Below the pieces are notes generated by a model. It was not told the DNA's origin and did not search any database. It worked only from the letters and a program-made list of their open reading frames with translations. The translations under genes were made by a program, and so were the position numbers. 64,000 nucleotides of DNA from Acidimicrobiaceae bacterium (GTDB lineage: Bacteria; Actinomycetota; Acidimicrobiia; Acidimicrobiales; RAAP-2), in contig DAIDJP010000049.1 of assembly GCA_027451285.1 (NCBI GenBank), positions 1 to 64,000 of the forward strand, in the 5' to 3' direction. This document shows, piece after piece, positions 623-39,013 of the stretch. The number at the start of each line of letters is the position of its first letter. Within the stretch, counting starts at the first letter, position 1.

Positions 623-809
623 CTGATCTCCTTGGGGGATGTGTCGGTCGCGACTCTGCGGCCCACGTCGATGCTACTGATGTCCCAGGCGCGCTCTGTC
701 TCCAGGATCCGGGCTGAACGTCACTCAGTTTGTGACGAATTCCCCTGATGGTTACCGGCGGGTAGACCGTAGCCTCCTTCGAGGGGCCGTTCGCAATCTA
801 AAGGACATC

Positions 810-4048: not shown

Positions 4049-6145
4049 CTAGTCGCGCGTCGAGGCCACGGCCTCGCGCAGCTCGGCGATCATCGCCGCC
4101 ACGTCGCTCGCCGGCACCGCGGGCGAGAAGAGAAAGCCCTGGCTGATCTCACAGCCGAAGCGGCGAAGGCGTCCCAGCTGATCGCTCGTCTCGATCCCCT
4201 CGGCCAAGATCGGCAGGTGGAGCTTGGCCCCCAGCCCCACGATCGACTCGAGCAGCGCGTCGTTGTAGACGTTGTCGATCGCCGGACGCGAGAACGCGTG
4301 GTCGATCTTCACGTAGCGCGGGTGCAGGCGCACGAGGTACGACAGCGACGCGAAGCCGGCGCCGAAGTTGTCGAGGGCCACACCCACCCCGAGCTCGCTC
4401 AGGCGCTCGATGGTGGCGACCGAAGTGACGACGTCTGACAGCGCGTCGCGCTCGGAGACCTCAATGACTAGCCGCGAGGGATCGAGACCGGATTCTGCCA
4501 GCGCGGCCGCGACGATGTCGACGAGACCGGGATCGCGGAACTGGTGCGCCGAGACGTTCACGCTGACATAGGGCGCGACACCCGCGGCGCTCTCCTCCCA
4601 AGACTGGGCGGCGATGACCGCCTCACGCACGGCGAACGCGCCGAGATCTACGATCAACTCGCTCGACTCGGCGAGCGCCAGGAACTCGGTCGGCGGGATG
4701 TAGCCGCGTTCGGGGTGCTGCCAGCGCATCAGCGCCTCGAATCCCACCACCTCGGTCGACGTCGTGTCCACGATGGGCTGGAAGTGCATGGAGAGCTCGC
4801 CGGCGAGGAGGGCCTCGCGCAGCTCATTGAGATGAGTCATGCGCGTGAGAACGCGCTGGTGCATCGCCGAGGAGAAGAGGACGTGGCGACCCTTGCCGTG
4901 GCGTTTGGCCTCATAGAGGGCGACGTCGGCCTCCTCGACGACCTGGTCGCGGTCGGGCGACTCGTCGTCCCAGACGACGACGCCGATGGACGCGTGCTGC
5001 TCGATGAGGGCCCCGGCGATGGTAAAGGGCTCGTTGAGGGCCGCGAGAAGTCGTGCGGCCATCGCCTCGGCCTCGTCCGGGTTGTGCAGACCATCGGCCA
5101 GGTAGAGGAACTCGTCGCCGCCGAAACGGCACAGAGTGTCCGCGGAGCGCGACACGCCCTGGAGTCGCCGGGCCACCTCGATGAGGAGTTGGTCGCCGAC
5201 GAGGTGGCCGTGGGTGTCGTTGACCCCCTTGAAGTCATCCAGGTCGAGGATCATCACAGCGCCCAACCCCCCTTGGCGCGCGATGCGCGTGCGGACCTGA
5301 CTCAGGCGGTCCTCGATCAGCGCCCGATTCGCCAGGCCGGTCAGGGGATCGTGCAGAGCCTGGTGAGAAAGCTGGCTCGTCAGGGCGCGCTCTTCGGTGA
5401 TGTCGCGCTCGCTGATGACGTAGTAGAGGATGTTGCCGGCCTCGTCGCGCGCGGGCGAGCGAGAAACTTCGACCACGATGACGCGCCCGTCCTTGTGCAG
5501 GTAGCGCTTCACGTAGCGCATCTTGTCAACGCGGCCCTCGAGCATCTGACGGTGCGAGTCCTCGGTGATGCCGACGTCTTCGGGATAGGTAAAGAGCCGC
5601 GAGTCCCCGCCGATCAGCTCTTCGCGGCTGAATCCCACCATCTCGCAGAATGCGTCGTTCGCGGCCATGATGTTGTCGTCGAGGTCGGTGAAGATGATCG
5701 GCGACATCGAGTTCTCAAAGGCCAGCTGGAAGCGCTGCTCCATCTCGCGGTGCGCCACCTGGGCGTCGCGCTCACGGCTGACGTCGCGCACCGTGGCGAT
5801 CCCCCAGGTCTCATCGGCGACGACGAGTGGCGAGACCGCGATGTCCACAGCGAGGCTCTCACCCGCGGCGTTCAGCAAACGCAAATCGTAACCGCGACCA
5901 AGAGGACGAGAAAACGGATGCGCAAAGAAGCCCGCGAGGTGCCGATCGTGGCGATCGTGGCGATCGCCGTCGAGCAGAAGTGACAGGTGATGACCGATGA
6001 GTCCGGCCTCGTCACGTCCCGCGAGGCGCGCCAGGTGCTGATTGATCCCGCGGATGACTCCATCGCAGTCCACGACGATCACGCCGTCTGGGACCGACTC
6101 GGCGAAGGCTCGCCAGCCGGGATAACTCTGATCGAGCGAATCCAC
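4049..6145 (-). CDS. PAS-PAS-GGDEF-EAL bifunctional c-di-GMP protein
   Basis: A 698-residue soluble protein with two PAS domains (about 10-120 and 135-255), a GGDEF domain (RFGGDEFLYL near residue 341, with the I-site RSAD before it) and an EAL domain (GFEALMRW near residue 468). The cyclase residues are intact. In the EAL domain the usual DDFGTG metal motif reads DNFGAG, while the other ligands (NVS, EVSE, KID, AEGIE) are kept, so phosphodiesterase activity may be weakened. The start is GTG at 6145 because AAGGTGAGG lies directly upstream. It is the first gene of a two-gene unit with the MBL-GGDEF gene. PAS domains usually sense redox, light or small ligands; none can be named here. Confidence 0.9.
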   Translation of the reverse strand: MDSLDQSYPGWRAFAESVPDGVIVVDCDGVIRGINQHLARLAGRDEAGLIGHHLSLLLDGDRHDRHDRHLAGFFAHPFSRPLGRGYDLRLLNAAGESLAVDIAVSPLVVADETWGIATVRDVSRERDAQVAHREMEQRFQLAFENSMSPIIFTDLDDNIMAANDAFCEMVGFSREELIGGDSRLFTYPEDVGITEDSHRQMLEGRVDKMRYVKRYLHKDGRVIVVEVSRSPARDEAGNILYYVISERDITEERALTSQLSHQALHDPLTGLANRALIEDRLSQVRTRIARQGGLGAVMILDLDDFKGVNDTHGHLVGDQLLIEVARRLQGVSRSADTLCRFGGDEFLYLADGLHNPDEAEAMAARLLAALNEPFTIAGALIEQHASIGVVVWDDESPDRDQVVEEADVALYEAKRHGKGRHVLFSSAMHQRVLTRMTHLNELREALLAGELSMHFQPIVDTTSTEVVGFEALMRWQHPERGYIPPTEFLALAESSELIVDLGAFAVREAVIAAQSWEESAAGVAPYVSVNVSAHQFRDPGLVDIVAAALAESGLDPSRLVIEVSERDALSDVVTSVATIERLSELGVGVALDNFGAGFASLSYLVRLHPRYVKIDHAFSRPAIDNVYNDALLESIVGLGAKLHLPILAEGIETSDQLGRLRRFGCEISQGFLFSPAVPASDVAAMIAELREAVASTRD

Positions 6146-7945: not shown

Positions 7946-8527
7946 CTAACCGCGTGACAATATGGCGCGGTTCAACGCGTCGAGGGTCGCGCGCGCCGCC
8001 GCGAGGACGTCGTCATCAGCCTGCGCGACGCCGAAGCGGTCGGTGCCGTCCTCGAGTGAACGCAACGTGACGATGACTGGCCAGTTGCGCAGCGCCGTCA
8101 CGTTCGTCACCGCGAGCAACGTGAAGGGAATCTCGAAGCCCAGCTCGCGCAGCGCGGCGAGAGTCGCCTCGGCACCACCGATCAGCGGTCCGCTGCCCGT
8201 CACGCCCACACCACTGCGGCCGAAATACTCCAGCTCAACCTCGCACCCGCCATTGGAGGCATCGAACTCGGCGCGCGTGAGGACAACGCGAGACCCGCCA
8301 CCGACGGGCTTCACCTCGCGATTGGCGTCCTCGACGACGATGTGTGCACTGGGAAAGTAGAGGTTGGCGATCTGGCGGGCCACATTCTCCGTCTCGCTGA
8401 TGCTCGGGCCATAGACGAGCAGCGTCACGACGCTTACGTCGTCGCCGGTGCGCTCCATTGCGACGTTCAAGACGCCCGGCAGGCTGCGCAGCTCGAGCTC
8501 GAAGTCCTCTTCGGTCGTCGACATCAT
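7946..8527 (-). CDS. Stand-alone protein with LeuA-allosteric-domain-like C-terminus, unknown function
   Basis: A 193-residue soluble protein. The N-terminal 85 residues are a mixed alpha/beta stretch of unknown type. Residues of about 90-193 resemble the regulatory (dimerisation) domain of 2-isopropylmalate synthase: a VELEYFGRSGVGVTGSGP start, an alanine-rich helix, then RFGVAQADDDVLAAA and a closing DALNRAIL. No TIM-barrel catalytic domain is present. It is the last gene of a three-gene operon, its ATG overlapping the stop of the upstream GGDEF gene by four bases (ATGA). The context suggests a ligand-sensing partner in c-di-GMP signalling, but that is inference. The family match is by eye and needs a profile search. 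Confidence 0.55.
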   Translation of the reverse strand: MMSTTEEDFELELRSLPGVLNVAMERTGDDVSVVTLLVYGPSISETENVARQIANLYFPSAHIVVEDANREVKPVGGGSRVVLTRAEFDASNGGCEVELEYFGRSGVGVTGSGPLIGGAEATLAALRELGFEIPFTLLAVTNVTALRNWPVIVTLRSLEDGTDRFGVAQADDDVLAAARATLDALNRAILSRG

Positions 8528-9333
8528 GAGAGGCGAATGCCCTTTCGTTCGTAAAGGCGGGCGTCGGCGATACGCACGAGCTCGGCCGGATCAGTCGAAT
8601 CGCGCGGCGAGGTCGCGGTGCCGATCGTGAACTCCACCAGGTCGCCGGTGGTCTTCAGGTACGTGCGCAGGCGATCGACGAAGCCCACGGCCTCGGGGCC
8701 CTCAGCGTTGGAGAGGATCACCGCGAACTCGTCGCCCCCTAGGCGTGCCGCGATGTCGCCGTGGCGCACCGCGTGGCGCAGCGCGAAGCCGAACTGGCGC
8801 AAGACGTAGTCGCCGAAAGCGTGCCCGGCGCGGTCGTTAAAGGACTTGAAGTCGTTCAGGTCGATGATCACGAGAGAGAACGCCCAGCCGTAGCGGGCGC
8901 TGCGAGCGGCCGCGGTCTGCAGGGCGCTGTCAAAGCTGCGCCGGTTGCACACGTTGGTGAGCGGATCGTGCTCAGAGCTAAAACGCGCCACGTGCAACGA
9001 CAGCGCCAGTTGACAGGCCGTTCGCAGCGCGTCGCGCTCAGCGGCCGGTACCACGTCGGGCTCGCAGTAGAGGCCGGGGACGCTGTCCAAGTCGCTGACC
9101 GGCGACGTAGAGACGCTGCGCTGTCCGAGACGGAACGACTGGGTGCCGATGTACTCGTGATGTAAGACAACTACCGCGTCGGACAGACCGTGGCGCTCCG
9201 CGACCTGTTCGAGCAGCGTATAGATAAAGCCCACACCCAGCTCGTTCGTCTCGAGCTCGGCGATCATGGCCTGGAACAGCCAGGGCTCGTAGTCCCGCTC
9301 GCTCTCGTCGCGCAGGGCGCTGACCGCACTCAC
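8524..9333 (-). CDS. GGDEF diguanylate cyclase with short N-terminal sensor region
   Basis: A 269-residue cytosolic protein. The C-terminal half is a complete GGDEF domain with ARLGGDEFAVIL near residue 197 and an I-site RHGD placed correctly before it, so it should make c-di-GMP and be product-inhibited. The first 110 residues form an uncharacterised, GAF-like or helical sensor with no membrane segment. The gene overlaps both neighbours by four bases (stop of the GGDEF-EAL gene upstream, start of the LeuA-like gene downstream), so all three are translationally coupled. Confidence 0.9.
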   Translation of the reverse strand: MSAVSALRDESERDYEPWLFQAMIAELETNELGVGFIYTLLEQVAERHGLSDAVVVLHHEYIGTQSFRLGQRSVSTSPVSDLDSVPGLYCEPDVVPAAERDALRTACQLALSLHVARFSSEHDPLTNVCNRRSFDSALQTAAARSARYGWAFSLVIIDLNDFKSFNDRAGHAFGDYVLRQFGFALRHAVRHGDIAARLGGDEFAVILSNAEGPEAVGFVDRLRTYLKTTGDLVEFTIGTATSPRDSTDPAELVRIADARLYERKGIRLS

Positions 9334-11627
9334 GAGGCGTCGGCGTACTGGCGCGTCACGTCACCCGTGCGCAGCACGGCCTCGGACGCCGATCCCGTCT
9401 CCAAGAGCCCGGCGAGATCACGCGGTGCCATGGGAACGGAGATGAGATAACCCTGACCACGGTGACAGCCCAACTCCAGCAACTTGTCGACAACCATGGA
9501 GGACTCGATCCCTTCGGCGATGATCTCCAGATTAAGGGCAGCACCGAGGCGGATGATGGATTCGACGATCGCGGCGTCGTAGGGGTCGGAGTTGATCCCG
9601 CGCACGAAACTCATGTCCAGCTTCAAGAGGTCGACCGGCAGGTGCTTGAGCTCAGTCATCGATCCGAATCCCGTGCCAAAGTCGTCGAGAGCGATCTCCA
9701 CGCCCAGCTCCTGGAATCCGCGCAAGACCTCGGCGGTCTTTATGGGGTCGTCCATGACCGTGTACTCGGTGATCTCCACGCAGAGCCGCTCACCGGGCAC
9801 GTTGTTCTTGCGCAATGTCTCGGCCACGAAGTCCACCAGGTCGTCCATCTTGAAGTCGGCCGGCGACATGTTGACCCGCACAATGAAGTCGAGCGTCGGG
9901 TAGTCACGGCGCCACTCGCTGAGCTGGCGACAGGCTTCGGCGAAGACCCAGCGGCCGATCATGGTCACCAACCCCGTATCCTCGGCGATCTTGATGAACT
10001 GACCCGCCGAGAGCAGGCCGCGGGTGGGGTGCTGCCAGCGGACCAGGGATTCGACGGCCAGCAGTTTGCCAGTTCGCAGGTCGACCTCTGGCTGGAAGTG
10101 CAGGCGCAGTCCGTCGCTCTCGACGGCCTCGCGCAAGAGAAGTTCGGTGTGCGAGCGCTCGTCGACCGAGTCCGAGAGCTCCTCGTCGAAGATCACGGCC
10201 TGATTGCGCCCGCGGGCCTTGGCCGCGTACATGGCGACGTCGGCGCGACCCAGCAGGTCGAGACCGTTCTTGGAACCTCGCGGCGCCAGGGCGATGCCGA
10301 TGGAAGCAGTGTGGTTCATCCGCTGGCCGCCGATCTCTACCGGCTCGGCGATGACGTCAAGCATTCGATAGGCGCTGGCGAGAACCTCCATCTCGCTCTT
10401 GGCCTTGTCCACTAAGAAGACGAACTCGTCACCGCCGAGGCGGGCGACGAAGTCGTTGGCGCGAACACTGGTGCGCAGGCGGTCGGCCATGGTGATGAGG
10501 AGCCGGTCACCGTTCTGGTGGCCCAAGTAGTCGTTCATGACCTTGAAGCGGTCGAGGTCGATCACCATGACCGCGGTATCACGGCGCGCTTCGAGTCGCG
10601 ACTTCAACTCGGCGACCAGCGCACGGCGGTTCGCAAGTCCCGTCAACTCGTCATGGTTGGCGTTGTAGATGATCCGCTCTTCGGCCTCGATGCGGCCCTG
10701 CATCTGAGCGAGCATCGAGGCGACCGCCTGCATCGCGTTGACCTCTTCAGGAATCCACTTGTGCAAGCCGAAGTGCAAGAAGCCAAGCACGCCCCACGTC
10801 GTGTCGCCCATCAAGAGGGGGACCGCGCCACCGGCGACGAGCGAGACGCCCGAGCCGCTCTCAACGCGCGCCAGGTAGTCCTCGGGCGTCTCATCGACCC
10901 CGGGCATGAAGGGCCGACGCAGGTCCTTCATCGCCATGAAGACCGGGTCGCTGTCGAAGGGCACCTCGCCGAGGGGATCGGGGTCGGGAATGTTCTCACG
11001 CTTGGGCCACTCGGCCTCGAGGACACTGAGTCCACGCTGGTGGTCGTTGCGCCGAATGAAAGCGACGTCGGCCTCGATGAACTCCGCCAGTTGGCGCACG
11101 GTCCACTGGAGCACCTCGCCGCGGTTCGCCGACGTCCCACTCATCAGGTGCTCCGCCACGCTCGCGACGAGCTCGTCGAGACGCCGCTGGAGGAGCAAGT
11201 TGCTCTCGCGCGTGGCGAGGGTGGCGACCTGACTCAACAGGCTGCCAAAGGCCTTTACCAACGAGCGCTCCCGACGCGACCACGTGCGTCCCTGGCGCGA
11301 GACCACGAGTGCGCCGGCGTCGACGCCACCTTTAACGCGAATCGGGTCAACCAGCACGCCCCACTCGACGCCGCGGATTTGGGTGGAATAGGAATTGGTC
11401 GCGTGGCCCGCGAGCAACTCGGCCTGGATGTGCTCGCAAATCGACTCGTAGACCTTTTGGGCTCCCTCTGAAACAAGAGGCTCCATGGTGAAGCCGGGGA
11501 TCGGCTCGCCGATTCCCGTAACGATCGCCACGATCTCGGTGCCCGCGACGACCTCGACCAGCGTCTCCACGACGAGACGGGTCTCCTCCATGGTCTTTTC
11601 TAGCGACGTGTTGTCGTCTGTACTCAT
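9330..11627 (-). CDS. GAF-GGDEF-EAL bifunctional c-di-GMP protein
   Basis: A 765-residue soluble protein. Two GAF-like regions occupy about residues 10-330. The GGDEF domain carries ARLGGDEFVFLV near residue 396 with I-site RAND. The EAL domain reads AVESLVRW near residue 523, where the catalytic Glu of EAL is kept and Ala is replaced by Ser; the remaining ligands (NMS, EITE, DDFGTG, KLD, AEGIE) are present. Both activities are therefore possible, with GAF ligands choosing between them. It leads the operon with the GGDEF and LeuA-like genes. The ATG at 11627 lacks a strong ribosome site. Confidence 0.9.
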   Translation of the reverse strand: MSTDDNTSLEKTMEETRLVVETLVEVVAGTEIVAIVTGIGEPIPGFTMEPLVSEGAQKVYESICEHIQAELLAGHATNSYSTQIRGVEWGVLVDPIRVKGGVDAGALVVSRQGRTWSRRERSLVKAFGSLLSQVATLATRESNLLLQRRLDELVASVAEHLMSGTSANRGEVLQWTVRQLAEFIEADVAFIRRNDHQRGLSVLEAEWPKRENIPDPDPLGEVPFDSDPVFMAMKDLRRPFMPGVDETPEDYLARVESGSGVSLVAGGAVPLLMGDTTWGVLGFLHFGLHKWIPEEVNAMQAVASMLAQMQGRIEAEERIIYNANHDELTGLANRRALVAELKSRLEARRDTAVMVIDLDRFKVMNDYLGHQNGDRLLITMADRLRTSVRANDFVARLGGDEFVFLVDKAKSEMEVLASAYRMLDVIAEPVEIGGQRMNHTASIGIALAPRGSKNGLDLLGRADVAMYAAKARGRNQAVIFDEELSDSVDERSHTELLLREAVESDGLRLHFQPEVDLRTGKLLAVESLVRWQHPTRGLLSAGQFIKIAEDTGLVTMIGRWVFAEACRQLSEWRRDYPTLDFIVRVNMSPADFKMDDLVDFVAETLRKNNVPGERLCVEITEYTVMDDPIKTAEVLRGFQELGVEIALDDFGTGFGSMTELKHLPVDLLKLDMSFVRGINSDPYDAAIVESIIRLGAALNLEIIAEGIESSMVVDKLLELGCHRGQGYLISVPMAPRDLAGLLETGSASEAVLRTGDVTRQYADAS

Positions 11628-11721
11628 ATCGGCCTAATTCTGAACGGTGCGGCGTCTGCCAGAACAGCGGTACAGCGGACACTGGCGACATCTCCCCAGA
11701 TCAGGCCATGTTAGGCCAGTC

Positions 11722-11745
11722 GCCCCAAATTGGGCAACTTTTTTT
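11722..11745 (+). terminator. Candidate intrinsic terminator pointing rightward in an all-minus region
   Basis: GCCC and GGGC arms around a six-base loop are followed within three bases by seven T residues (11739-11745) on the + strand. Flanking genes both read leftward, so this hairpin could only stop antisense transcription entering the ThiF-nitroreductase gene. The stem is short, so it may be coincidental. Confidence 0.3.
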
Positions 11746-14640: not shown

Positions 14641-14848
14641 CGTCGGTCAGCTCCACTTCGAATTGTCTCGCGGGTACGTCGTCGCTGACGCAACTTTTAC
14701 CCGTAGCCTGCTCAAATAGTACTGACGCATCACGCAGAATTGGTGAATGCGAGAAGCGACGAAGGTCACGTATGCGCGCTGTTGAGCGGTACTCGAACGA
14801 GCCGTGGCTCCTCACGAGCGTGGGTAACCACACGGAGTGCGTTCGCCA

Positions 14849-15625
14849 ATGAGAGTCACCGCCCTCGCGCTGGTCGGGCTACTCGGCCTCGCAGTGGGCT
14901 CGTTTCTCAACGTCGTCATCTACCGAACGCCGCGCGGGGAGTCGCTGGTGCGACCCCGCTCGCACTGCCCGCACTGTGGCATTGAGATCGAGAACCGTGA
15001 CAACGTTCCGCTGATCTCGTGGATCCTGCTACGCGGCAAGTGTCGCCACTGTGACGGAGTGATTTCCGTGCGCTACCCACTGGTCGAGCTCGCGACCGCA
15101 CTCCTCTTCCTCGCCGCCGTCTGGCGGCTGGGTTTCTCTTGGGCATTGCCGGCCTATCTCGCCTGGCTCGCGGGACTGCTTGCCCTTGCCCTTGTGGACC
15201 TGGAACTTCTCAAGCTGCCGCGATCCATGGTCTTCACGACCCTGCTAGTGACCAGCGTTCTTCTCGTCGCAGCCTCGTCCGCTACCCATGACTGGCATCG
15301 ACTGCTCGTAGGCGTCATTGCCGCCGTCACCTGGTTCGTTCTCTTTTTCACCATGAACTTTGCCAGCCCTCGGATTCTCGGTTTCGGCGATGTCCGTCTA
15401 GCGGTGCTGCTCGGCCTTGGTCTCGGCTGGCTGGGAGTGGGTCACGTGATCGTCGGATTCTTCCTCGCGAACCTACTTGGAGCGGTCATTGGCATCACGT
15501 TGATCGTCTCGGGCAGAATGAAGCACGACCAGCCCGTCCCCTACGGGGTCTTCCTGGCGGCGGGCGCGATGGTGGCACTCTTCGCCGGACCGTATCTAGT
15601 AACTCTCATCCACTTAACCAGTTAG
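14849..15625 (+). CDS. pilD: Prepilin peptidase / N-methyltransferase PilD
   Basis: A 258-residue membrane enzyme that cleaves class III leader peptides of type IV prepilins and N-methylates the new Phe/Tyr. Two CxxC pairs (CPHC and CRHC) mark the cytosolic zinc loop near residues 40-75. The two catalytic aspartates sit in LVDLELLKLP and ILGFGDVRL, and about seven hydrophobic segments follow. The ATG at 14849 is favoured over the in-frame GTG at 14837, which would lie directly on the GGAG sequence. The gene faces the rest of the pilus locus, ending four bases from the DUF429 gene, so it has its own promoter. It is the only prepilin peptidase seen here and should process all four pilins downstream. 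Confidence 0.93.
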   Translation: MRVTALALVGLLGLAVGSFLNVVIYRTPRGESLVRPRSHCPHCGIEIENRDNVPLISWILLRGKCRHCDGVISVRYPLVELATALLFLAAVWRLGFSWALPAYLAWLAGLLALALVDLELLKLPRSMVFTTLLVTSVLLVAASSATHDWHRLLVGVIAAVTWFVLFFTMNFASPRILGFGDVRLAVLLGLGLGWLGVGHVIVGFFLANLLGAVIGITLIVSGRMKHDQPVPYGVFLAAGAMVALFAGPYLVTLIHLTS

Positions 15626-15628
15626 GGG

Positions 15629-16333: not shown

Positions 16334-16338
16334 GTCTC

Positions 16339-17436
16339 TCAGTTCTTCGGGACGACGTATCCCATCTGCTCCAAGGCTCGTCCCAACTCCTTGGGGTGCG
16401 CACTCACAGTGAGAGCGTCCTCATAGGTTATTACCTCGTCCTTTATGAGCCTCGCCAGATCCGATTCGAGCAACTGCATGCCCTCTTTGGTGTTTGTGAA
16501 CATCACGTTGGCCAATTGGTTGGAACGGTTCTCTCTGATTAGGTTTCGAATTGGGTTCGTTGCAATCAGGACCTCGAAGGCCGCCACCATCCCACCGCCG
16601 ATCTTGGGCACGAGGCGCTGAGCGATGATCGCCGACAGCGACGCAGCGAGTTGCACGCGGGTCTGCTCCTGGCGCCAAGCAGGAAACACATCGATGATGC
16701 GGTCGATGGCCTGAGGAGCATCATTGGTGTGGAGTGTCGCGAATACCAAGTGGCCGGTTTCGGCCATCGTCAGGGCGATCTGAATCGACTCGATGTCGCG
16801 CATCTCACCGATCAGGATGATGTCGGGGTCCTCGCGCAGGGCTGAGCGAAGCGCGCGATCGAATGAAGGGCTGTCTAGACCCACCTCGCGCTGGCTGACC
16901 GCCGACATCTTGTGGTTGTGCAGGTACTCTACAGGGTCCTCGATGGTGAGAATGTGCGCGGCCCGGGTTTCATTGATTCGGTCGATGATCGAAGCCAGCG
17001 TCGTCGACTTTCCAGACCCGGTTGGGCCAGTAACGAGTACGAACCCTCGGGGCTGCTGGGCCACCCATTCCGCCGCCCACGGTAGCTTCAACTCGTCGAA
17101 CGACGGAATCCTCGTGGGAATCATTCTCAGCGACAGGGCGGTCTGGCCACGTTGAGTGAAGACGCTCCCGCGAACGCGGCCAACATCCTTGAATGAAAAC
17201 GCGAAGTCAACGTCCTGCTGGGTCTTGAAGATCTCCTTCTGCCCGCTGGTCAGGAGGGGCATCGCCATGTCCGCGATGTCCTCACCGGAGAAGATCGGCG
17301 CACCTTCAATTGGAATCAATCTTGACGAAACACGTATGCGAGGCGACGAACCACCCGAGAGGAGAAGGTCGCTGCCTCCTTGCTCCCAGAGCACCTGCAA
17401 CCACGGATCGATCTTTCTTTCTCCCTTATCGCCCAT
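16339..17436 (-). CDS. pilT: Pilus retraction ATPase PilT
   Basis: A 365-residue hexameric ATPase that depolymerises type IV pili. It has an N-terminal PAS-like domain, Walker A GPTGSGKSTT near residue 137, Asp box, Walker B DPDIILIGEMRD and the PilT hallmark AIRNLIRE-like sequence (NPIRNLIRENRSNQL). I chose the ATG at 17436, with AAGGGGA eight to ten bases upstream; a longer frame to 17502 lacks support. It sits about 100 bases downstream of the major pilin gene. Presence of PilT indicates that these pili are retractile, enabling twitching or DNA uptake. Confidence 0.93.
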   Translation of the reverse strand: MGDKGERKIDPWLQVLWEQGGSDLLLSGGSSPRIRVSSRLIPIEGAPIFSGEDIADMAMPLLTSGQKEIFKTQQDVDFAFSFKDVGRVRGSVFTQRGQTALSLRMIPTRIPSFDELKLPWAAEWVAQQPRGFVLVTGPTGSGKSTTLASIIDRINETRAAHILTIEDPVEYLHNHKMSAVSQREVGLDSPSFDRALRSALREDPDIILIGEMRDIESIQIALTMAETGHLVFATLHTNDAPQAIDRIIDVFPAWRQEQTRVQLAASLSAIIAQRLVPKIGGGMVAAFEVLIATNPIRNLIRENRSNQLANVMFTNTKEGMQLLESDLARLIKDEVITYEDALTVSAHPKELGRALEQMGYVVPKN

Positions 17437-17540
17437 ATCAATTTCCCCTTCCGAGTTCTGTAGACAAAGCGTGGGTGCCCGACTCAATTGCCGGGCACCC
17501 ACGCATCACATCGCACCTACCGTGCAATGGTCAGACTTCA

Positions 17541-18101
17541 CTATGCCTTTCCAGTTACGGCCCAGGCACAAGCCTCAGTGGGCGACTGGCTGGCGTCGTA
17601 CCAAAGTCCCGATGCAGCGGTCGTAGCTGGTGCAGCGACCAATACATCACCATACTGAGGCGTCGCAGAACTCGTCGACGACGTACCCGCGGGAATGGCA
17701 ACACCTCCCGCATAGGCCGTGGCAAAGTCAGTGCCATATACGGCAACTTGATAACTTGTTGAGTTCGGCCAAGACTTCACAAAGGGATTTCCAGTCAATC
17801 CGGTGACGGCCGTCGTAGCCAACATGTCCGTCTTGAATGTGCCCGATGCCAAGCCTCCAGTCAATGTCGAATACTGGGGGTTCTCCGCCATGAGCGCAGA
17901 CGCGCCAACGTCTACGGTCTTAGCATCGCTTTGGCAGGCCGCCACAGCGCTCTTCTGGGTGACGCTGCCAAGAGCGAACACAACAATTGCGGCGAGGATT
18001 CCCAGCACGACGATCACGATCAGGAGCTCGATCAGGGTGAAGCCCCCGTCAATCTCTCCAGCCGCACGCTTGCGCTGAATCTCGCGGTACTTTTGAAACA
18101 T
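17541..18101 (-). CDS. pilA: Major type IV pilin (PilA-like)
   Basis: A 186-residue prepilin. After an 18-residue basic leader, the class III cleavage site reads DGG/FTLIELLIVIV with the essential Glu at +5 and a long hydrophobic helix, which forms the filament core. The globular part is Ser/Thr/Ala-rich with a Cys pair candidate (CQSD near the start, EACAW at the end) that could form the D-loop disulphide. The ATG at 18101 was selected because it gives a normal leader; upstream in-frame codons give an implausible extension. It follows a 263-base low-GC gap, so it probably has its own promoter, as is common for highly expressed pilins. Confidence 0.92.
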   Translation of the reverse strand: MFQKYREIQRKRAAGEIDGGFTLIELLIVIVVLGILAAIVVFALGSVTQKSAVAACQSDAKTVDVGASALMAENPQYSTLTGGLASGTFKTDMLATTAVTGLTGNPFVKSWPNSTSYQVAVYGTDFATAYAGGVAIPAGTSSTSSATPQYGDVLVAAPATTAASGLWYDASQSPTEACAWAVTGKA

Positions 18102-18364
18102 AGTTTTCTGCCTTTCATCTGGTGGCGAACCGACACTCGGAACCACTTCATCCCCCAACGCGGTGGAATGCCAATTCTTACCACTGGTCAACATTCCGCG
18201 CAAGAGAATTTTTCTTGATTTCAAAATTGAGACAGAAGTTAAAGAATCAGTGTTCACAACTCCAACCCGTTGTAAATTGACGCAACTTCTGACCACATCT
18301 TTCACAATTTTAGAACAACTAACTTGCTGTCCTTGATGCCTCCCCTCCCTGACATGCCCTAGAA
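18102..18364 (-). other. AT-rich leader upstream of pilA
   Basis: This 263-base gap is much richer in A+T than the rest of the window and separates pilA from the minor pilin genes. It most likely holds the pilA promoter and 5' leader. I could not identify a convincing -35/-10 pair, terminator or riboswitch by eye. Confidence 0.4.
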
Positions 18365-22363: not shown

Positions 22364-22377
22364 CCCCGTTCCGGAAC

Positions 22378-23745
22378 CTAATGCACTTGAACTTGGTTGT
22401 AAATCCCGTACATCGCTGAGATCAGTGCAACTGCGACAAAGCCAACCACTCCGCCCATGAAGATGATGATGGCGGGCTCGAACAGCGTGGTCGCGCGGTC
22501 CACCTTCGTTTCGAGCTCCCGCCCGTAGTACGCGGCAGCGACTTCGAGCTGCTGATCAAGGGTTCCTGTCTCTTCACCGACGCGGAACATCTGTTGTGCC
22601 GCGCCTGGGAACAGACCGGTCCGTGCCAACGGCTCGGCGAGTCCCTGACCTTGCATCATGTCGTCACGGATTCCCTCGATGGCCTTTCGATACACCGTGT
22701 TATTGGCCGACTCCGCCGTGACCTCCATACTGCGCGGCAAGTCGACGCCCGCGTGGAGCATCGAAGCGAGGATCCGACACGTCCGTTCAAGAATCGATGT
22801 CTGGGTCAAGTCCCCAACCACTGGCAAGCGAAGTATCCATGTGTCAAGCTGCGCACGTCCTCTCTCCGTACGACGCATCGTGATGAAACCACCGACCAAG
22901 AGAATGATCACACCGAGGATCGCGTACCACCAGTGACCCACGAATCCCGAGACGCCGAGCAGCATCCGAGTCACCAGAGGCAACTTGGCATTAAGCGACT
23001 TGAAGAAGACTTCAAAGCGAGGCAAAACGAACACGGTGAGGATGACGACTGTCACGACTGACATCGCGGCGACCACCGCGGGGTAAATCAAAGCGGACGT
23101 CACCTTGGAGCGCGCCTTCACGTCGCGATCGATGTATTCCGCCAACTGGTTGAGCACGGTGTCCAGATTGCCGGTCAACTCCGCCGATTCAAGAATCCCG
23201 ACGTAATAATTGGGGAACGCCTCAGGATGGGCCTTCGCCGCAGAAGCAAATGTTTCGCCATTACGTAATTTGTCGACCATATCCAGCAGGATCGACTTCA
23301 ACAGCTTCCCCGTGGTCTCCTCGACAATGACTTCTAGAGATTCCATGATGGGAATGCCGGCGTGCATGAACACCGCCAGTTGGCGTGAGAAGTTCATGAT
23401 CTCCTGGCGCGGCACCGTCTTCTTGGTGATCTCCAGGTTGAGAATGCTCTTCTTCACTTCGACGGAGAGGGGCTGATAACCGCGCTGCAACAGTTGGATA
23501 TTCACTGCACCCGCCGAAACGGCCTTTTCAGTTCCAGAGACCCTCTTCCCCTGATCATCCAGTGCTTCCCACCTGTACTGGTAGACGGGCGTCTTCTTCT
23601 TTGCTTTGGCGCGCTTCGCAGATTCCTTGTCACGCCGCTTGTTCATCTTCTCTTGGAGCTTGGCGCGATCGGCTCTGTCCTTCTTGAGCTGCTCGAGTTC
23701 CTTCGCCGCCCGTTCCTCTTCGGAGAATTCCTTCTTCGGACTCAT
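22378..23745 (-). CDS. pilC: Type IV pilus inner-membrane platform protein PilC
   Basis: A 455-residue GspF/PilC-family protein that connects the assembly ATPase to the growing pilus. Two homologous GspF domains (about 110-230 and 320-440) and three to four transmembrane segments are visible. Typical motifs include FSRQLAVFMHAGIPIMESL and its second copy RTCRILASMLHAGVDLP, plus GEETGTLDQQL. The first 55 residues are an unusually charged Lys/Glu/Arg-rich, probably coiled-coil extension absent from most PilC proteins. The start overlaps the pilB stop by four bases. Confidence 0.93.
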   Translation of the reverse strand: MSPKKEFSEEERAAKELEQLKKDRADRAKLQEKMNKRRDKESAKRAKAKKKTPVYQYRWEALDDQGKRVSGTEKAVSAGAVNIQLLQRGYQPLSVEVKKSILNLEITKKTVPRQEIMNFSRQLAVFMHAGIPIMESLEVIVEETTGKLLKSILLDMVDKLRNGETFASAAKAHPEAFPNYYVGILESAELTGNLDTVLNQLAEYIDRDVKARSKVTSALIYPAVVAAMSVVTVVILTVFVLPRFEVFFKSLNAKLPLVTRMLLGVSGFVGHWWYAILGVIILLVGGFITMRRTERGRAQLDTWILRLPVVGDLTQTSILERTCRILASMLHAGVDLPRSMEVTAESANNTVYRKAIEGIRDDMMQGQGLAEPLARTGLFPGAAQQMFRVGEETGTLDQQLEVAAAYYGRELETKVDRATTLFEPAIIIFMGGVVGFVAVALISAMYGIYNQVQVH

Positions 23746-25694
23746 AGCGTGTAAACGCTCCGGATCACTTCAGCAATCGTCGTGACATCTTGACGCACTA
23801 GATTGATCGCCTCTTGGCGCAACGTGCGCATGCCCTGCTTGACCGCAAGGGCGCGCAACTCCTCCTGCGTCGCCCAGCCAACAACCAGTCGACGGATCTC
23901 CGGGGTCATCACCAGTAACTCATAGATGCCGATCCGGTCCTGATAGCCGGTGTGACTGCAGAAGTTGCACCCCGCTCCGTAGAAGAACGTCTCCTTGGGC
24001 TCGCCGCCGGACTCCAGGTAGAAGGCGAGCTCTTCTTCAGTCGGTGTGTACTGGGTGCGGCACGACACACAGATGCGCCGCAAGAGACGCTGGCCCACCA
24101 CGGCCAAAACTGAACTCGCAACCAGGAACGACTCGATGCCCATATCGAGCAGCCGGTGCAAAGCCGAGACCGAGTCCGTAGCGTGCATCGAGGAGATCAC
24201 GAAGTGACCCGTCAGTGCCGACTGCACCGCGACTCTCGTGGTCTCCACGTCACGCACCTCGCCGACCAGGATGACGTCGGGGTCCTGACGAAGAATGGAC
24301 TTGAGGCCAGTCGCGAACGTGAGCCCCGCCTGGTCGTTGGTCTGGATCTGGTTGATCGAGGGGAACACGTATTCGACCGGGTCCTCGATCGTCATGACGT
24401 TGAGCCGCGGGCTCGCGACCTCACTGACCGTGGCGTAGAGCGTCGTCGTCTTCCCCGATCCGGTCGGACCGGCGCAGATCACCATGCCGAAGGGCGCGCG
24501 CACCAACTTCGAATATGTCTCGTGGGTGTCCTCGGGCATTCCCAAGTCGTTGAGACGCAGGACCGATCGGGTCTTGTCGAGGATTCGCATGACGCACTTC
24601 TCGCCCATGATCGTCGCCACCGTGGAGACGCGCACGTCTACTTCCTTGCCGTCCACGATCGTGGTGAGCTGACCGTCTTGAGGGCGGCGGCGCTCGACGA
24701 TATTCATGTCCGCCATGACCTTGATACGGCTGATGAGACCCGGTCCCATGGAAACCGGCAGTTCCAGGATCTCATTGAGGGCGCCATCGATGCGAAAGCG
24801 CACCCGCACGACGTCGTCACTGGGCTCGATGTGCACGTCGGAAGCACGGTCGCGCATCGCCTGGGTGAGGATCCGACTCACGACCTGCACGACCGGAGCA
24901 TCATCCGCTACAACCTCGGCGGTACTCGCCTCGGGTGTGCGCCGGCGCGACTCCTCAACGACCTGGAATGCCTGGACCAGCTTGCCCACACCACTGATCG
25001 CGCGGTAGTTCGAGTCGATAGCCCACTGAATGTCGGAAGGCGAGGCAATGAAGAGCGAGATCTTCTTGCCGCTGCCGGTCGCGAGCGCCGCTTTGATATC
25101 GTCACTCGGTTCGGTGCAGGCGACTTGCAATTCGTCGCCCTCAAGTCGCACCGGCATCACCAAATGCTCTCGGGCGAAGGACTCGGGCACGAGTGGCAGC
25201 ACGTCGGGATCAACATCTTGGAAGTGAAGGTTGACTGCCGGGGTCGCGAAGAAGACGGACAGCGCCTCCATCAACGTCTTCTCGTCGAGTGCCCCTGTTG
25301 ACACTAAGACCTGGCCCAGCCTCTCGCCGGAAGCGTTCTGCAGCAGGAGTGCCTGTTCAAGCTGTTCGGACGTGATCCGTCCGGTCTCGATGAGCAACTC
25401 ACCCAGACGACCTCTAAAGGGTCCGGACACCACCATTGCGCCGCGCAGGGACTCTGGCAGCGGTGGCAGAACTGGCTTCAACGATTCCTGCGGAACCTTC
25501 GCATCAATGATTTCAACATCCTCGGCATCTTCGACCTCGACCTCGACCTCGGTCATCAGGGCCGTGGTGCCGCCCTCGTCGGCCCTCGGCGCGAACGAAC
25601 TCCCGCTTGTTACCGGGTCTACCGGCTGGTCGCGGTCGTCCGAGCGCTTTTCGCGATTCCCCTTCTTGTCCTTGTCCTTCTTTTTGAAAGCCAC
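23742..25694 (-). CDS. pilB: Pilus extension ATPase PilB with N-terminal c-di-GMP-binding MshEN domain
   Basis: A 650-residue assembly ATPase. After about 90 charged residues comes a tandem MshEN motif (residues 96-119 and 125-148; see separate entry), then the GspE N-domain. The ATPase core has Walker A GPTGSGKTTT near residue 408, Walker B-like DPDVILVGEVRD, and the zinc-binding tetracysteine (CVSC and CNFC). It powers pilin polymerisation at PilC. The start is GTG at 25694 with GGTGAGG upstream. It is first in the pilus operon and overlaps pilC by four bases. MshEN domains are established c-di-GMP receptors, so pilus extension is probably c-di-GMP-dependent. Confidence 0.94.
   Translation of the reverse strand: MAFKKKDKDKKGNREKRSDDRDQPVDPVTSGSSFAPRADEGGTTALMTEVEVEVEDAEDVEIIDAKVPQESLKPVLPPLPESLRGAMVVSGPFRGRLGELLIETGRITSEQLEQALLLQNASGERLGQVLVSTGALDEKTLMEALSVFFATPAVNLHFQDVDPDVLPLVPESFAREHLVMPVRLEGDELQVACTEPSDDIKAALATGSGKKISLFIASPSDIQWAIDSNYRAISGVGKLVQAFQVVEESRRRTPEASTAEVVADDAPVVQVVSRILTQAMRDRASDVHIEPSDDVVRVRFRIDGALNEILELPVSMGPGLISRIKVMADMNIVERRRPQDGQLTTIVDGKEVDVRVSTVATIMGEKCVMRILDKTRSVLRLNDLGMPEDTHETYSKLVRAPFGMVICAGPTGSGKTTTLYATVSEVASPRLNVMTIEDPVEYVFPSINQIQTNDQAGLTFATGLKSILRQDPDVILVGEVRDVETTRVAVQSALTGHFVISSMHATDSVSALHRLLDMGIESFLVASSVLAVVGQRLLRRICVSCRTQYTPTEEELAFYLESGGEPKETFFYGAGCNFCSHTGYQDRIGIYELLVMTPEIRRLVVGWATQEELRALAVKQGMRTLRQEAINLVRQDVTTIAEVIRSVYTL
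25251..25409 (-). other. Tandem MshEN c-di-GMP-binding motif within pilB
   Basis: Residues 96-119 begin RLGELLIETGRI and end ALLLQ; after a five-residue spacer (NASGE), residues 125-148 begin RLGQVLVSTGAL and continue to LMEALSVFF. This matches the two 24-residue RLGxxLxxxG...LxxAL motifs, spaced by five residues, that wrap c-di-GMP in MshE-type ATPases. Confidence 0.85.
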
Positions 25695-31284: not shown

Positions 31285-31349
31285 GAATCGCCACCGTAAG
31301 GTGGTTGACAGGGCCGAACACGCTAACTGGCAGATGGAGGGGAGGTGAC

Positions 31350-33107
31350 GTGCCCGCTCGCGAGCCACAACAGGAGAATTCTGAGGAGTCGTCTCTGTCG
31401 AACAATCAGAACAGCACCTTTCGTACGCAACTTTTAACGAGCCCCCTTCCGACCTGGGTCTATAGCTTGGCAACGCTCGCCTTCTTAGAAGTAAATGACG
31501 CGGCAATCGCTCACTACGGCTATTCGCGAGACCAGTTCCTAGCAATGACGATCGAGGACATCCGCCCGCCCGAAGATCGAGAACGCCTGCTCAAGAGCAT
31601 CGCCAGTCCGCGCGAGACCCTGCAGTATTCAGGGCTCTGGCGCCACCGACGCGCCGACGAACGCTTGATTGACGTGGAAGTGACGTCGCACCTACTCACG
31701 TGGAACGACCAGCCCGCTGCGCTGGTCGTGGCTCATGACGTCACCGAGATTCACCATCTACACGCCGAGCTCACCAAGCGCGCCCACTTCGACGACGTGA
31801 CCGGACTCGCCAGCTCCACCTTGTTTCACGATCGAGTGACCCAGGCCGTCGAACACCATCGCGGTGACGGCGCGATGACCGCGGTCCTCGTTCTGGCCCT
31901 TGATGGTCTCGAAGCGGTCGAGTCGACGATGGGAAGCCACGTGACCGACGCCATGGCAATTGCCACCGCCGATCGGCTCCGCGGCGTCTGCTCGACAAGC
32001 CACATCGCGGCTCGACTCGGAAAGAGCCGATTTGCCATCTTGTGTGATGATCGTCCCGAACACGAGATTCTTTCGCTGGCGCGAAACGTCGTCAGTGCCA
32101 CCACGCCCTTAGTGCCTATACCTGGTCACGGAGATCTCAAGAGTGTCGTCTCCGTCGGATTGGCCTTTGCTGATGACGAAACCCTTGACGCGGCGAGTCT
32201 CATCGCCGATGCGACGTCAGCCATGCGCCACGCAGCGGAACGCTACGGCGATCACTTCGTGATCTTCAACAAGGAATTGCGTCGCGACAGCCGTGCCGCA
32301 TTTGAGACTCAGCAAGCGCTCGCCCACGCATCGCGACACGACGAACTTCGACTTCACTACCAGCCCGTCGTGGACTTCGCGGCTGGCACCTCGAGTTGTG
32401 AAGCGCTGCTGCGATGGGACCGTCCCGGTGCTGGCCTCATCGGACCCGACCACTTCATCCCCCTCGCCGAACGCAGCGAGCTCATCGTCGAGATCGGAGC
32501 CTGGGTGATCGAGCAGGCTATCCGCGACGTCGCCGCGTGGCCGACGCCTCTTCGTCCCACACGAGTTGGCATCAACCTGTCGCCTCGCCAGCTCTACGAC
32601 GAGAACCTCGTCGAACGCTTCGTGCTGTCGTGCGCGGCATCGGGTGTATCCCTGTCGTCTGTGTGCGTCGAGCTGACCGAGTCGGCATTCGTCGCCACCG
32701 ATGACTATGGCGCGTATCGAACCCTCGCGAAATTGCGCGACCTCGGTGTCGAGGTCGCAATCGACGACTTCGGCACCGGCTACTCGTCACTCTCATATCT
32801 CAAACATCTGCCATTTGACGTCGTCAAGATAGACCGCACGTTCGTCGCGGGACTCGGTGTTGATCCGACGGACGCATTGCTCGTCGACGCCGTTATCCGG
32901 GTGGTACATGGTCTGGGCTCCAAGGTGGTCGCCGAAGGCGTCGAAACGGAGATTCAGCTGGCCACGCTGCGCGAGCTCGGCTGTGACGCCGCTCAGGGGT
33001 ATCTCTTGGCACAGCCGGTTCCCAGTGCCGACTTACCCTCCGCGATGGAGGCCGCGCGTCAGATTGTCGAAACCCAACGCAGCTCCGCACAAGCGACACT
33101 GCCGTAA
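31350..33107 (+). CDS. PAS - degenerate GGDEF - EAL c-di-GMP phosphodiesterase
   Basis: A 585-residue soluble protein. PAS domain about 30-150; GGDEF-like domain about 160-310, in which the signature is replaced by LGKSRF near residue 224 and the I-site is lost, so it cannot be a cyclase; EAL domain about 325-575 with SCEALLRW near residue 350 and all further ligands (NLS, ELTE, DDFGTG, KID, AEGVE). It should therefore be a phosphodiesterase, with the dead GGDEF possibly sensing GTP as in other such proteins. The start is GTG at 31350, five bases after GGAGG. It is monocistronic and convergent with cysE. Confidence 0.9.
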   Translation: MPAREPQQENSEESSLSNNQNSTFRTQLLTSPLPTWVYSLATLAFLEVNDAAIAHYGYSRDQFLAMTIEDIRPPEDRERLLKSIASPRETLQYSGLWRHRRADERLIDVEVTSHLLTWNDQPAALVVAHDVTEIHHLHAELTKRAHFDDVTGLASSTLFHDRVTQAVEHHRGDGAMTAVLVLALDGLEAVESTMGSHVTDAMAIATADRLRGVCSTSHIAARLGKSRFAILCDDRPEHEILSLARNVVSATTPLVPIPGHGDLKSVVSVGLAFADDETLDAASLIADATSAMRHAAERYGDHFVIFNKELRRDSRAAFETQQALAHASRHDELRLHYQPVVDFAAGTSSCEALLRWDRPGAGLIGPDHFIPLAERSELIVEIGAWVIEQAIRDVAAWPTPLRPTRVGINLSPRQLYDENLVERFVLSCAASGVSLSSVCVELTESAFVATDDYGAYRTLAKLRDLGVEVAIDDFGTGYSSLSYLKHLPFDVVKIDRTFVAGLGVDPTDALLVDAVIRVVHGLGSKVVAEGVETEIQLATLRELGCDAAQGYLLAQPVPSADLPSAMEAARQIVETQRSSAQATLP

Positions 33108-36586: not shown

Positions 36587-39013
36587 GTGGGAGTGAAACC
36601 TCTCACTAGTGTGTTCCCATCGAACGCCAGAGACGGCCTTTCACGCCGACGGGGCCCCAGCATTTTCAAGAGAACCTTCGGTGAGACGTTGACCTCCAAC
36701 AGCACAGACGTCCTCGCCGCCCGTGAGGAGGTGGGGACACACTGGGACTGGAGCGCTGCCGGTGCACTGCTTCTTGGACTGGCTCTCGCCGGCGTGGACC
36801 GCTTCCCCGTCGACGCCGCGACGGCCGACAAGGGGGTATTCGCCGCGGCGGTGGTGCTCGCGGGAATCCCCGTGTACCAGAGGATCCGCCGCTTCCCAGC
36901 TCGGCGCATCACGTGGGGCATGCTTCTGGCGGCCGAGTTACTCACGGCGATCGCCGGCGCCCTGTATGGCGCGCTACCGGGTGGGACCAATCCCTTCGCC
37001 CCGCCGACGGAGAACCTCGTCATCGCGGCCCTCATCAGCGTGCTCGCTGTGGGCTTCGCCACCTCACTTTCGTACGCTTCCTTGCGCGTTCTTGACTTGA
37101 GCATGTTGATTGACGCAGTGGCGGGCGGCCTGGCAATTTCATCGTTGCTCGCGTGGCTTTACATGCGCCGAATACTGGTCCCCTTCACTGGGCTCGCCGC
37201 CGGGCTACGGGAGCCGACGCGCTTCGCGATTGGCGTCACCGGTGTGATCATCGTCGTGGCGTTGGTGACGGCTACAACCATGCTCGACGTGACCGGCGAC
37301 CGACTGATGCTGTATGCGGTCTCGGCAGCCGTGTTGGTCTCCGTTGGCGAAGTGCTCGCCCACCACGCGCTGCGACTTCATTCAACACGGTGGGGCTATG
37401 TCATCGATATCTGCTGGATCGGCGCGTACGTCGTAGTGGGCCGCGCGGCGCAACTGGACGATGGTTCGACCTCACGAACCGGTGAGCGACGCGAACGAGC
37501 CTTCGCCGGTCACCAGTCACGCAAGATCGCCGTGTTCGGAGTGATCGCAATTGCCGTGATGTCGCTAGCGGCAGCATTCGCGGACCCACCCGTCGTGGAT
37601 GGTCTCGCCCTGTCAGCTCTCACCATGCTTCTTCTTCGCCTGCTGATTTCCCTCAAGTCAGAACGCGTCCACTCGATGTTGTATGAGGAACTCGCGGTCA
37701 CCGATCCATTGACGGGACTCGCCAATCGGCGCGGCTTCGCCGCGGCCACCATGACGTCAACGTCCGCTTCAGGGGTGACTGATGGCGGGGTCGTGCTCAT
37801 CGATCTCGACAACTTCAAGGATGTGAACGACTCCCTCGGGCACCGGGCGGGAGACCAGGTGTTGCGCCAGCTGGCACTTCGTTTGAAGAGCGCTCTGGAT
37901 CCCAGCACGGTCCTCGCGCGCCTTGGCGGCGATGAATTCGCACTATCTCGGTCAAGCGGGACGGCGGACGACCTCGAAGAACTCGCCGAGAACGTCGCAC
38001 TTCTCGTGCGCGAGCCGGTCCAGGTGGAAGGACTTTCCCTGCATCTCAGCGCCAGCGTCGGTGTCGCGGCGAGAAGCGCCGATCATGAGAGTCAAGAGGA
38101 GCTGATCCGCAAGGCTGACGTGGCGATGTATCTCGCCAAGGAGAATCATTCAGGAGTCAAGGTCTATGACTTCGAGCACGACCGCAATGACCCCAGCCGA
38201 CTCGTTCTCTACGGAAAAGTCGGCGAGGCGGTTCGCGATGGCTCGATCGACGTTCATCTTCAACCTCTGATCGACATCCAGACGGGGCGCATCGCGGGCT
38301 GCGAGGCGTTGGCGCGATGGAGCCCGGACGGCTTCGATCCGATTCCTCCCGATCGCTTCGTCCCCATGATCGAGATGCAAGGGCTCATCGTCCCCTTCAC
38401 CGCACACGTGCTACGTCGCTCCCTCGAGTACGTGACGCAGTTGCCGACGTTAGGCACGTCACATCGCCTGAGCGTCAACGTCACCGAGCGCGACTTCGTC
38501 AACGCCGACCTTTCCCAAGTCGTCGACGCGGCGCTGAGCGACTTTGACTTCCCCGCGGAATCACTGACAATTGAGATCACCGAGTCCGTACTCGCCAACG
38601 ATGACGCGAGAATCGATCAGAGCATCCAGGATCTTCGCTCCATGGGAATCCACATTGCGATCGACGATTTTGGAACCGGGTATTCGTCACTATCCAAACT
38701 TGTCGACTTCCCAATCGACGAGCTGAAGATCGACAGATCGTTTGTCAGTCGAGTGCTCACGAACCGAAACGCCGTGGCAGTTGTTCGCGCCGCGGTTGAC
38801 CTCGCACTGGAGATGGGCCTCGTCACGGTCGCCGAAGGCGTTGAGGATCAAGAGACCTGTGACGCCATTGAGAGCCTGGGGGTGAACCTCGTTCAGGGCT
38901 ACCACCTGGCCCCACCGATGCCCGCCTCGGAGTGCGAGCACTTTTTTTCACGCTTTGAGTGGCGCCCGATGGCGAGAGATCAGCAACGCAGCCAAAGGAA
39001 TATGGCGCCTTGA
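36587..39013 (+). CDS. Membrane-anchored GGDEF-EAL c-di-GMP protein
   Basis: An 808-residue protein with about eight to nine transmembrane segments in residues 55-350, forming a MASE-like integral membrane sensor. GGDEF domain with ARLGGDEFALSR near residue 446; the I-site RxxD is absent (DPST), so a cyclase would not be product-inhibited. EAL domain with GCEALARW near residue 572 and complete ligands (NVT, EITE, DDFGTG, KID, AEGVE). The first 50 residues may be non-coding if translation begins further downstream; the GTG at 36587 has no clear ribosome site. Monocistronic on the plus strand. Confidence 0.85.
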   Translation: MGVKPLTSVFPSNARDGLSRRRGPSIFKRTFGETLTSNSTDVLAAREEVGTHWDWSAAGALLLGLALAGVDRFPVDAATADKGVFAAAVVLAGIPVYQRIRRFPARRITWGMLLAAELLTAIAGALYGALPGGTNPFAPPTENLVIAALISVLAVGFATSLSYASLRVLDLSMLIDAVAGGLAISSLLAWLYMRRILVPFTGLAAGLREPTRFAIGVTGVIIVVALVTATTMLDVTGDRLMLYAVSAAVLVSVGEVLAHHALRLHSTRWGYVIDICWIGAYVVVGRAAQLDDGSTSRTGERRERAFAGHQSRKIAVFGVIAIAVMSLAAAFADPPVVDGLALSALTMLLLRLLISLKSERVHSMLYEELAVTDPLTGLANRRGFAAATMTSTSASGVTDGGVVLIDLDNFKDVNDSLGHRAGDQVLRQLALRLKSALDPSTVLARLGGDEFALSRSSGTADDLEELAENVALLVREPVQVEGLSLHLSASVGVAARSADHESQEELIRKADVAMYLAKENHSGVKVYDFEHDRNDPSRLVLYGKVGEAVRDGSIDVHLQPLIDIQTGRIAGCEALARWSPDGFDPIPPDRFVPMIEMQGLIVPFTAHVLRRSLEYVTQLPTLGTSHRLSVNVTERDFVNADLSQVVDAALSDFDFPAESLTIEITESVLANDDARIDQSIQDLRSMGIHIAIDDFGTGYSSLSKLVDFPIDELKIDRSFVSRVLTNRNAVAVVRAAVDLALEMGLVTVAEGVEDQETCDAIESLGVNLVQGYHLAPPMPASECEHFFSRFEWRPMARDQQRSQRNMAP

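Follow-up and report, generated by a model that had tools for sequence, protein, structure and literature searches.

The question raised by this locus is whether the extension motor of a type IV pilus (T4P) in an Acidimicrobiaceae bacterium is a receptor for c-di-GMP and how far its putative binding site departs from those already described. The motor gene lies in the window, by which we mean the whole analysed stretch of 64,000 nucleotides (contig DAIDJP010000049.1, assembly GCA_027451285.1), and encodes a PilB-type extension ATPase of 650 aa (23742..25694, minus strand). A first-pass annotation had credited its N-terminus with a textbook tandem MshEN motif for c-di-GMP and had placed seven c-di-GMP enzymes within 20 kb of it.

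The profile search identified the T2SSE ATPase domain (PF00437, 407 bits against a cut-off of 24.9) at residues 263-645 (23760..24908, minus strand), where two CxxC pairs can be read from the translation, and PilF/PilB sequences from the PDB matched the protein at E 1e-133 to 2e-128. The cut-off of TIGR02538, the type IV-A PilB equivalog, was missed (532 bits, cut-off 675.65), as was that of TIGR02533 for GspE (532.5 bits, cut-off 630.25). The name PilB therefore rests on the ATPase domain and on the locus. The gene for the PilC platform protein, with two T2SSF domains by domain profiles (22378..23745, minus strand), directly follows pilB and is succeeded inside about 9 kb by pilin-like genes with N-methylation motifs (the domain profiles place one at 17541..18305, minus strand), by pilT for the retraction ATPase (16339..17502, minus strand; TIGR01420 435 bits, cut-off 319) and by pilD for the prepilin peptidase (14837..15625, plus strand; A24 N domain and peptidase A24). 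The proteins looked for around a T4P extension ATPase, namely PilC, PilT, PilD and prepilin-like proteins, are thus all encoded. PilC also lies next to PilB in 19/19 of the nearest named loci (L032-L050), 8 of which are titled Acidimicrobiaceae and the rest Actinomycetes/Actinobacteria with a few Saccharibacteria and Acidobacteria. In a comparison with plasmid records, all 556 stayed below 60% identity. The pilus locus also encodes, at 19239-22363, two large proteins that are 485 and 555 aa long; they give weak prepilin N-methylation matches under the Pfam cut-off and are possibly modular pilins.

The tandem motif occupies positions 25251-25409 (159 bases, minus strand), corresponding to PilB residues 96-148, and consists of two RLG-starting units of 24 residues with a spacer of exactly five, just as the first-pass annotation had described it. 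About 93 residues lie N-terminal to the MshEN domain. Motif I, RLGELLIETGRITSEQLEQALLLQ (residues 96-119; 25338..25409, minus strand), keeps the Leu, Gly and Gln contacts and has R106 at the hydrophobic position 11. It is followed by the spacer NASGE (residues 120-124; 25323..25337, minus strand) and by motif II, RLGQVLVSTGALDEKTLMEALSVF (residues 125-148; 25251..25322, minus strand), in which the Gly and Leu contacts are kept and the last residue is Phe148, not Gln. The LxxxL of both motifs (L112, L116, L141 and L145) and the turn glycines G105 and G134 are present. NCBIfam NF053729 ('cyclic di-GMP-binding domain-containing protein, MshE-related') matched residues 96-146 with 59.5 bits (cut-off 38, E 2e-16) over profile positions 1-51 of 53, so that the match ends short of the last columns. 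The first-pass annotation had suggested searching residues 90-150 with PF05157; this profile instead covers the C-subdomain at residues 150-231 (25002..25247, minus strand; 59.7 bits, cut-off 23.1), and its match to PilB is the only one in the genome. The MshE crystal sequence (5htl) matched PilB at E 8.3e-18. The tandem motif of PilB is not due to chance. A random expectation of 2.4e-12 per position, calculated for the relaxed form of the motif, was dropped because the PilB sequence fails that form at two positions.

The structure predicted for residues 88-242 from a 37-sequence alignment (mean pLDDT 89.2) is nearest to c-di-GMP-bound MshE 5htl, with Z 18.9 and 2.0 A over 137 residues and a Foldseek E of 1.9e-12. 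Two non-binders, GSPII-A of PilF (Z 13.1) and XpsE (Z 15.0), have the same fold, so the fold speaks for kinship and not for binding. The assignment of a putative MshEN-type c-di-GMP receptor domain to PilB is nevertheless well supported by the curated profile, the predicted fold and the selective conservation of most ligand contacts. This part of the first-pass claim stands, with the qualification that the second half-site is altered.

The alteration becomes evident in comparison with the MshE consensus, RLGxx(L/V/I)(L/V/I)xxG(L/V/I)(L/V/I)xxxxLxxxLxxQ repeated twice (PMC5013675). PilB matches 19 of the 22 constrained positions, the exceptions being R106, A135 and F148. At position 11, where L/V/I is expected, motif I has R106 and motif II A135; at position 24, Q119 is present in motif I and F148 takes the place of Gln in motif II. 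The relaxed search motif of the same authors likewise fails at R106 and F148 (PMC5013675). Aligned to 5htl, the Phe148 codon (25251..25253, minus strand) is the counterpart of MshE Gln61, which bonds the ligand ribose and phosphate, and the Glu195 codon (25110..25112, minus strand) that of Asp108, which touches the second guanine yet is dispensable for binding (PMC5013675). Eight changed positions are listed for the non-binding XpsE, including Q61V and I19R (PMC5013675), and F148 and R106 of PilB fall on two of the eight. The predicted MshEN site of PilB is not a textbook one: in the first-pass description this was the word that had to be given up, as R106, A135 and F148 deviate and the motif-II Gln is lost throughout the sampled lineage.

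How much such changes matter can be judged from three known systems. MshE of Vibrio cholerae (5htl, PMC5013675) shares with PilB the 24-5-24 tandem, both RLG, the Leu contacts and the motif-I Gln, as well as the C-subdomain, the fold and the fusion to a T4P extension ATPase; it differs in having Gln61, Asp108 and Ile19 where PilB has Phe148, Glu195 and Arg106. In V. cholerae, c-di-GMP promotes extension via MshE (PMC7096442). GSPII-B of Thermus thermophilus PilF (8pdk, 9glg; PMC11731258) has the fold and motif of the PilB domain and tolerates natural departures from the consensus, among them K or L at the first letter of RLG. Unlike PilB, wild-type GSPII-B has both Gln and carries Lys and Leu at the two Arg positions (PMC11731258), and PilF contains three GSPII domains, whereas one was found in this PilB. 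Changing the motif-II Gln of GSPII-B to Glu raised the KD from 6 to 460 nM, a 77-fold weakening that still left binding, and full-length PilF with this variant was undetected in cells (PMC11731258). A structure of the motif-II Gln variant with ligand exists (9glg). GSPII-A of PilF (9g1w, PMC12002112), a natural non-binder, resembles PilB in its fold and in missing the motif-II Gln; it has neither Gln and a degraded motif II, whereas PilB has the motif-I Gln and both RLG. A truncated N-subdomain of GSPII-A bound measurably only when it had both Gln together with one Arg, and restoring the consensus did not make the full domain bind (PMC12002112), so that a good motif alone is no guarantee of binding.

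The best single-domain sequence match of the PilB domain, at 81 bits, is to the PilB of 3jc8, which likewise has MshEN on a PilB ATPase; unlike our protein, its motif II ends in Gln in the aligned sequence. We take 3jc8 to be PilB from Myxococcus xanthus. The PilB of that species binds c-di-GMP according to a review (PMC11656802), and c-di-GMP binding has been described for pilus motors of V. cholerae, M. xanthus, C. perfringens and Thermus (PMC11656802, PMC11731258).

With these systems at hand, an ordinary high-affinity MshEN receptor in which F148 is neutral appears very unlikely. Its best arguments are that the curated profile NF053729 is passed and that, in MshE, changes of Arg9, Asp12 or Gln32 shifted the affinity fivefold at most and the Asp108 contact could be spared (PMC5013675). 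Against it weigh the 77-fold cost of changing the motif-II Gln in GSPII-B (PMC11731258) and the distribution of this Gln among relatives of PilB. The position does not vary freely: the Gln is kept in 10 of 10 neighbouring non-degenerate rows of the alignment (motif-I Gln 9/10, Asp 10/10) and lost throughout the clade of the query.

The loss is a property of the lineage. In the genus sample, which held 16 PilB-positive genomes, 14 of them covering the motif region, the motif-II Gln is missing in 14/14 (F in 10, Y in 2, L and V in 1 each), the motif-I Gln is retained in 14/14 and Glu takes the place of Asp108 in 14/14. In genomes G015 and G004 (L016, L020), PilB is broken across two reading frames, the cause being a frameshift or else a mistake in the assembly. 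Among named MAG loci, a set that may share genomes with the genus set, the query falls in a clade of 21 rows (SH-aLRT 96) of a quick PilB tree with long branches. Position 24 of motif II is F in 17 and L in 3 of the 20 rows with data; in the 19 rows also covering motif I, the Asp108 place is E in 14, R in 2 and M, K or Q in one each. The first-pass annotation had named loss of the RLG residues in close homologues as something that would refute its claim. Such a loss was not observed: this clade has G98 and G127 in 19/19, L126 in 18/19 and L97 in 16/19, with a variable first letter (R96 17/19, R125 12/19), and Q119, L141 and L145 are each kept in 19/19.

For comparison between clades, 55 of 81 rows were used in four groups: A (19, the query clade), B (10), C (13) and D (13). 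A, B and C form a 45-row subtree together with L047, L072 (partial) and L054; the last, in which both Gln places are degenerate (Lys in motif I, Tyr at position 24 of motif II), was excluded from the groups. D was chosen from the other 36 rows for having both Gln, and its Gln count is so by construction. A degenerate clade of 13 rows (L052, L053, L055, L056, L059-L061, L063, L065, L067, L069, L071 and L077) has Ala for the motif-I Gln in 13/13 and no motif-II Gln; L126 is Phe in 13/13 and G127 is changed in 12/13 (to Ala in 10/13), with the Asp still present in 13/13. With both Gln gone, along with most contacts of motif II, the members of this clade are likely natural non-binders. As the Asp contact is dispensable in MshE and the Asp persists in this clade, the Asp-to-Glu change in the query clade may be unrelated to the ligand.

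The degenerate clade invites the view that the query domain has decayed as well. On this view the decay set in with the loss of the motif-II Gln, the domain has ceased to bind c-di-GMP at physiological concentrations, and the remaining residues are kept for four-helix packing or for contact with the pilus machinery. That a related clade could lose both Gln and the motif-II contacts and keep PilB is in line with this, as are the positions of F148 and R106, altered in the non-binding XpsE (PMC5013675), and the failure of GSPII-A, with neither Gln, to bind (PMC12002112). The relaxation seen in the 13 rows (L126F throughout, G127A in ten) is however not shared by the query clade, where G127, L141, L145 and Q119 are invariant. 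Mean entropy points the same way: for the nine Leu/Gly/Gln contacts against the remaining, unlisted positions in the 53-residue stretch it was 0.16 vs 1.63 bits in the query clade and 0.42 vs 1.58 bits in the two-Gln neighbours, compared with 0.63 vs 0.90 bits in the degenerate clade, whose lower overall diversity depresses the second figure. Conservation of the contacts after the Gln was lost favours continued binding over decay, though bundle packing could explain part of it, and we regard decay as unlikely.

We consider it probable, from the alignments and by analogy with MshE and PilF, that PilB carries an MshEN receptor whose second half-site has changed and which still binds c-di-GMP, with lower or altered affinity, and shifts the motor toward extension. 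Since the one-Gln variant of GSPII-B binds, GSPII-A without Gln does not and the changes made in MshE were mild, a one-Gln site most likely binds, more weakly than one with two Gln. In such a mechanism PilB acts as the extension ATPase of a T4P locus that also encodes PilT. The first half-site has its contact residues and the second has changed in the course of descent, Gln being replaced by Phe148 and Asp by Glu195; one c-di-GMP would be held by two Leu triangles, two Gly backbone contacts and Gln119, at an affinity lower than, or otherwise different from, that of an MshE-type site. Binding would then shift PilB toward pilus extension as for MshE, and we infer that c-di-GMP promotes extension here too and governs it in this lineage.

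The predicted MshEN domain of PilB is in these terms a known kind of receptor on a pilus motor, in a lineage-wide one-Gln variant; a limited literature search found no published description of a one-Gln MshEN variant. As far as the aligned sequences tell, one PilB line displays three states, with both Gln, one Gln or none, and this natural series bears on how much of the site c-di-GMP control of extension needs. A second one-Gln group of PilB relatives (L103, L105, L107, L108, L109 and L111; titled Gammaproteobacteria in 5/6 and Proteobacteria in 1/6) keeps the motif-I Gln and has Ala ending motif II.

A more far-reaching idea, which we put forward tentatively and think possible at best, is that of a lineage-specific asymmetric receptor in which both polar contacts to the second guanine are replaced (Gln by Phe/Tyr/Leu/Val, Asp by Glu), retuning the affinity or the ligand choice of the motor. 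PilB may on this proposal be the main recognisable c-di-GMP effector: PilZ gave zero matches in 25/25 genus genomes, our own included, and 4 of 41 genomes overall had one.

Within the genus, GGDEF and EAL enzymes are encoded in 16/16 PilB-positive genomes, and GGDEF was found in 4/9 of the PilB-negative ones (Fisher 0.0024). The corresponding counts for an orthologue of the enzyme at 9330-11627 are 15/16 and 2/9 (Fisher 0.0005). Matches to PilB and T2SSF are missing from 9 of the 25 genus genomes, and 5 of these 9 also have no GGDEF and EAL match. A kinship-aware version of the co-occurrence analysis used an RpoB tree that held 18 of the 25 genus genomes. Counting supported branches alone it yielded 2 independent pairs, and with all branches 5, which is not enough for a test. 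RpoB of G013 and G016 is merely 65-68% identical to our own despite the same genus label. In the genome studied here, 6 of about 11 GGDEF genes lie inside 40 kb (P ~1e-5 if independent, 0.003 with adjacent pairs merged); as a test this clustering was set aside because it had been picked after being seen.

The enzymes around the locus are seven, five to the left and two to the right of the pilus genes, as the first-pass annotation had counted them. By domain profiles, the left side comprises a PAS-GAF-HD-GYP phosphodiesterase (732..2306, plus strand), an ODP (diiron)-GGDEF cyclase (2303..4045, minus strand) and a PAS-GGDEF-EAL protein (4049..6145, minus strand) whose EAL domain reads DN. EAL domains usually read DD at this place. 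A GGDEF diguanylate cyclase with intact GGDEF (8524..9333, minus strand) and its partner, a GAF-GGDEF-EAL enzyme that recurs as a neighbour of the pilus locus (9330..11627, minus strand), complete this side. On the right are a PAS-GGDEF(degenerate)-EAL protein (31305..33107, plus strand), which the closest named relative, L049, lacks at this place between its trx and serAT genes, and a GGDEF-EAL protein whose N-terminal region is long (36587..39013, plus strand; domain profiles). Distances to the motif are 22.9, 21.2, 19.1, 15.9 and 13.6 kb for the left-hand enzymes and 5.9 and 11.2 kb for the right-hand ones. The 20 kb originally given thus holds for 5/7 enzymes when counted from the motif and for 6/7 when counted from the boundary of the PilB gene, where HD-GYP is the exception at 21.4 kb. 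All seven comply only if the count starts at whichever end of the pilus locus (14837-25694) is closer.

The sole enzyme pair seen to recur on the pilus side across relatives is that at 8524-9333/9330-11627. The adjacency pilD-ThiF-(GAF-GGDEF-EAL) occurs in 9 of 13 determinable PilB-positive genus genomes, our own included, with the GGDEF gene next in 8 of these 9; in the remaining one, G007, the contig breaks off there. The ThiF/enzyme block stands without pilD beside it in G001, G003, G004 and G018, where 2.5 to 5.3 kb of contig is visible on that side and BLAST at 1e-8 may overlook a diverged PilD; G011, G014 and G024 were left out of the count. The larger enzyme also persists in two of the nine PilB-negative genomes, whole in G010 and as a 304-residue piece at a contig end in G020. 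For the three leftmost enzymes, recurrence was judged on the genus contigs only, the examined flanks of most named loci reaching no further than 10 kb. With the proteins of the window as BLAST queries (1e-12), a GGDEF/EAL match upstream of pilB appeared in L043 only of the 19 loci L032-L050, whose upstream flanks span 0-10 kb; a different GGDEF/EAL-type gene lies just upstream of pilB in L043, G017 (L151) and G012 (L156). Since a single enzyme pair was seen to recur next to the pilus, the argument that the first-pass annotation drew from the neighbourhood is weak. The other enzymes were not seen to recur there, and the larger enzyme of the pair is retained in two genomes that lack T4P. The link that the neighbourhood draws between c-di-GMP and the pilus is no more than suggestive.

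Two minor observations concern the left flank. At 7946-14640, an Rv1355c-like ThiF/nitroreductase protein, the GAF-GGDEF-EAL and GGDEF proteins and a 193-aa protein with a weak LeuA_dimer match under the cut-off recur as a unit in the genus. At 2303-4045, an ODP-family beta-lactamase-like domain is fused to a GGDEF domain reading GGEEF, which makes this protein a possible oxygen-sensing cyclase.
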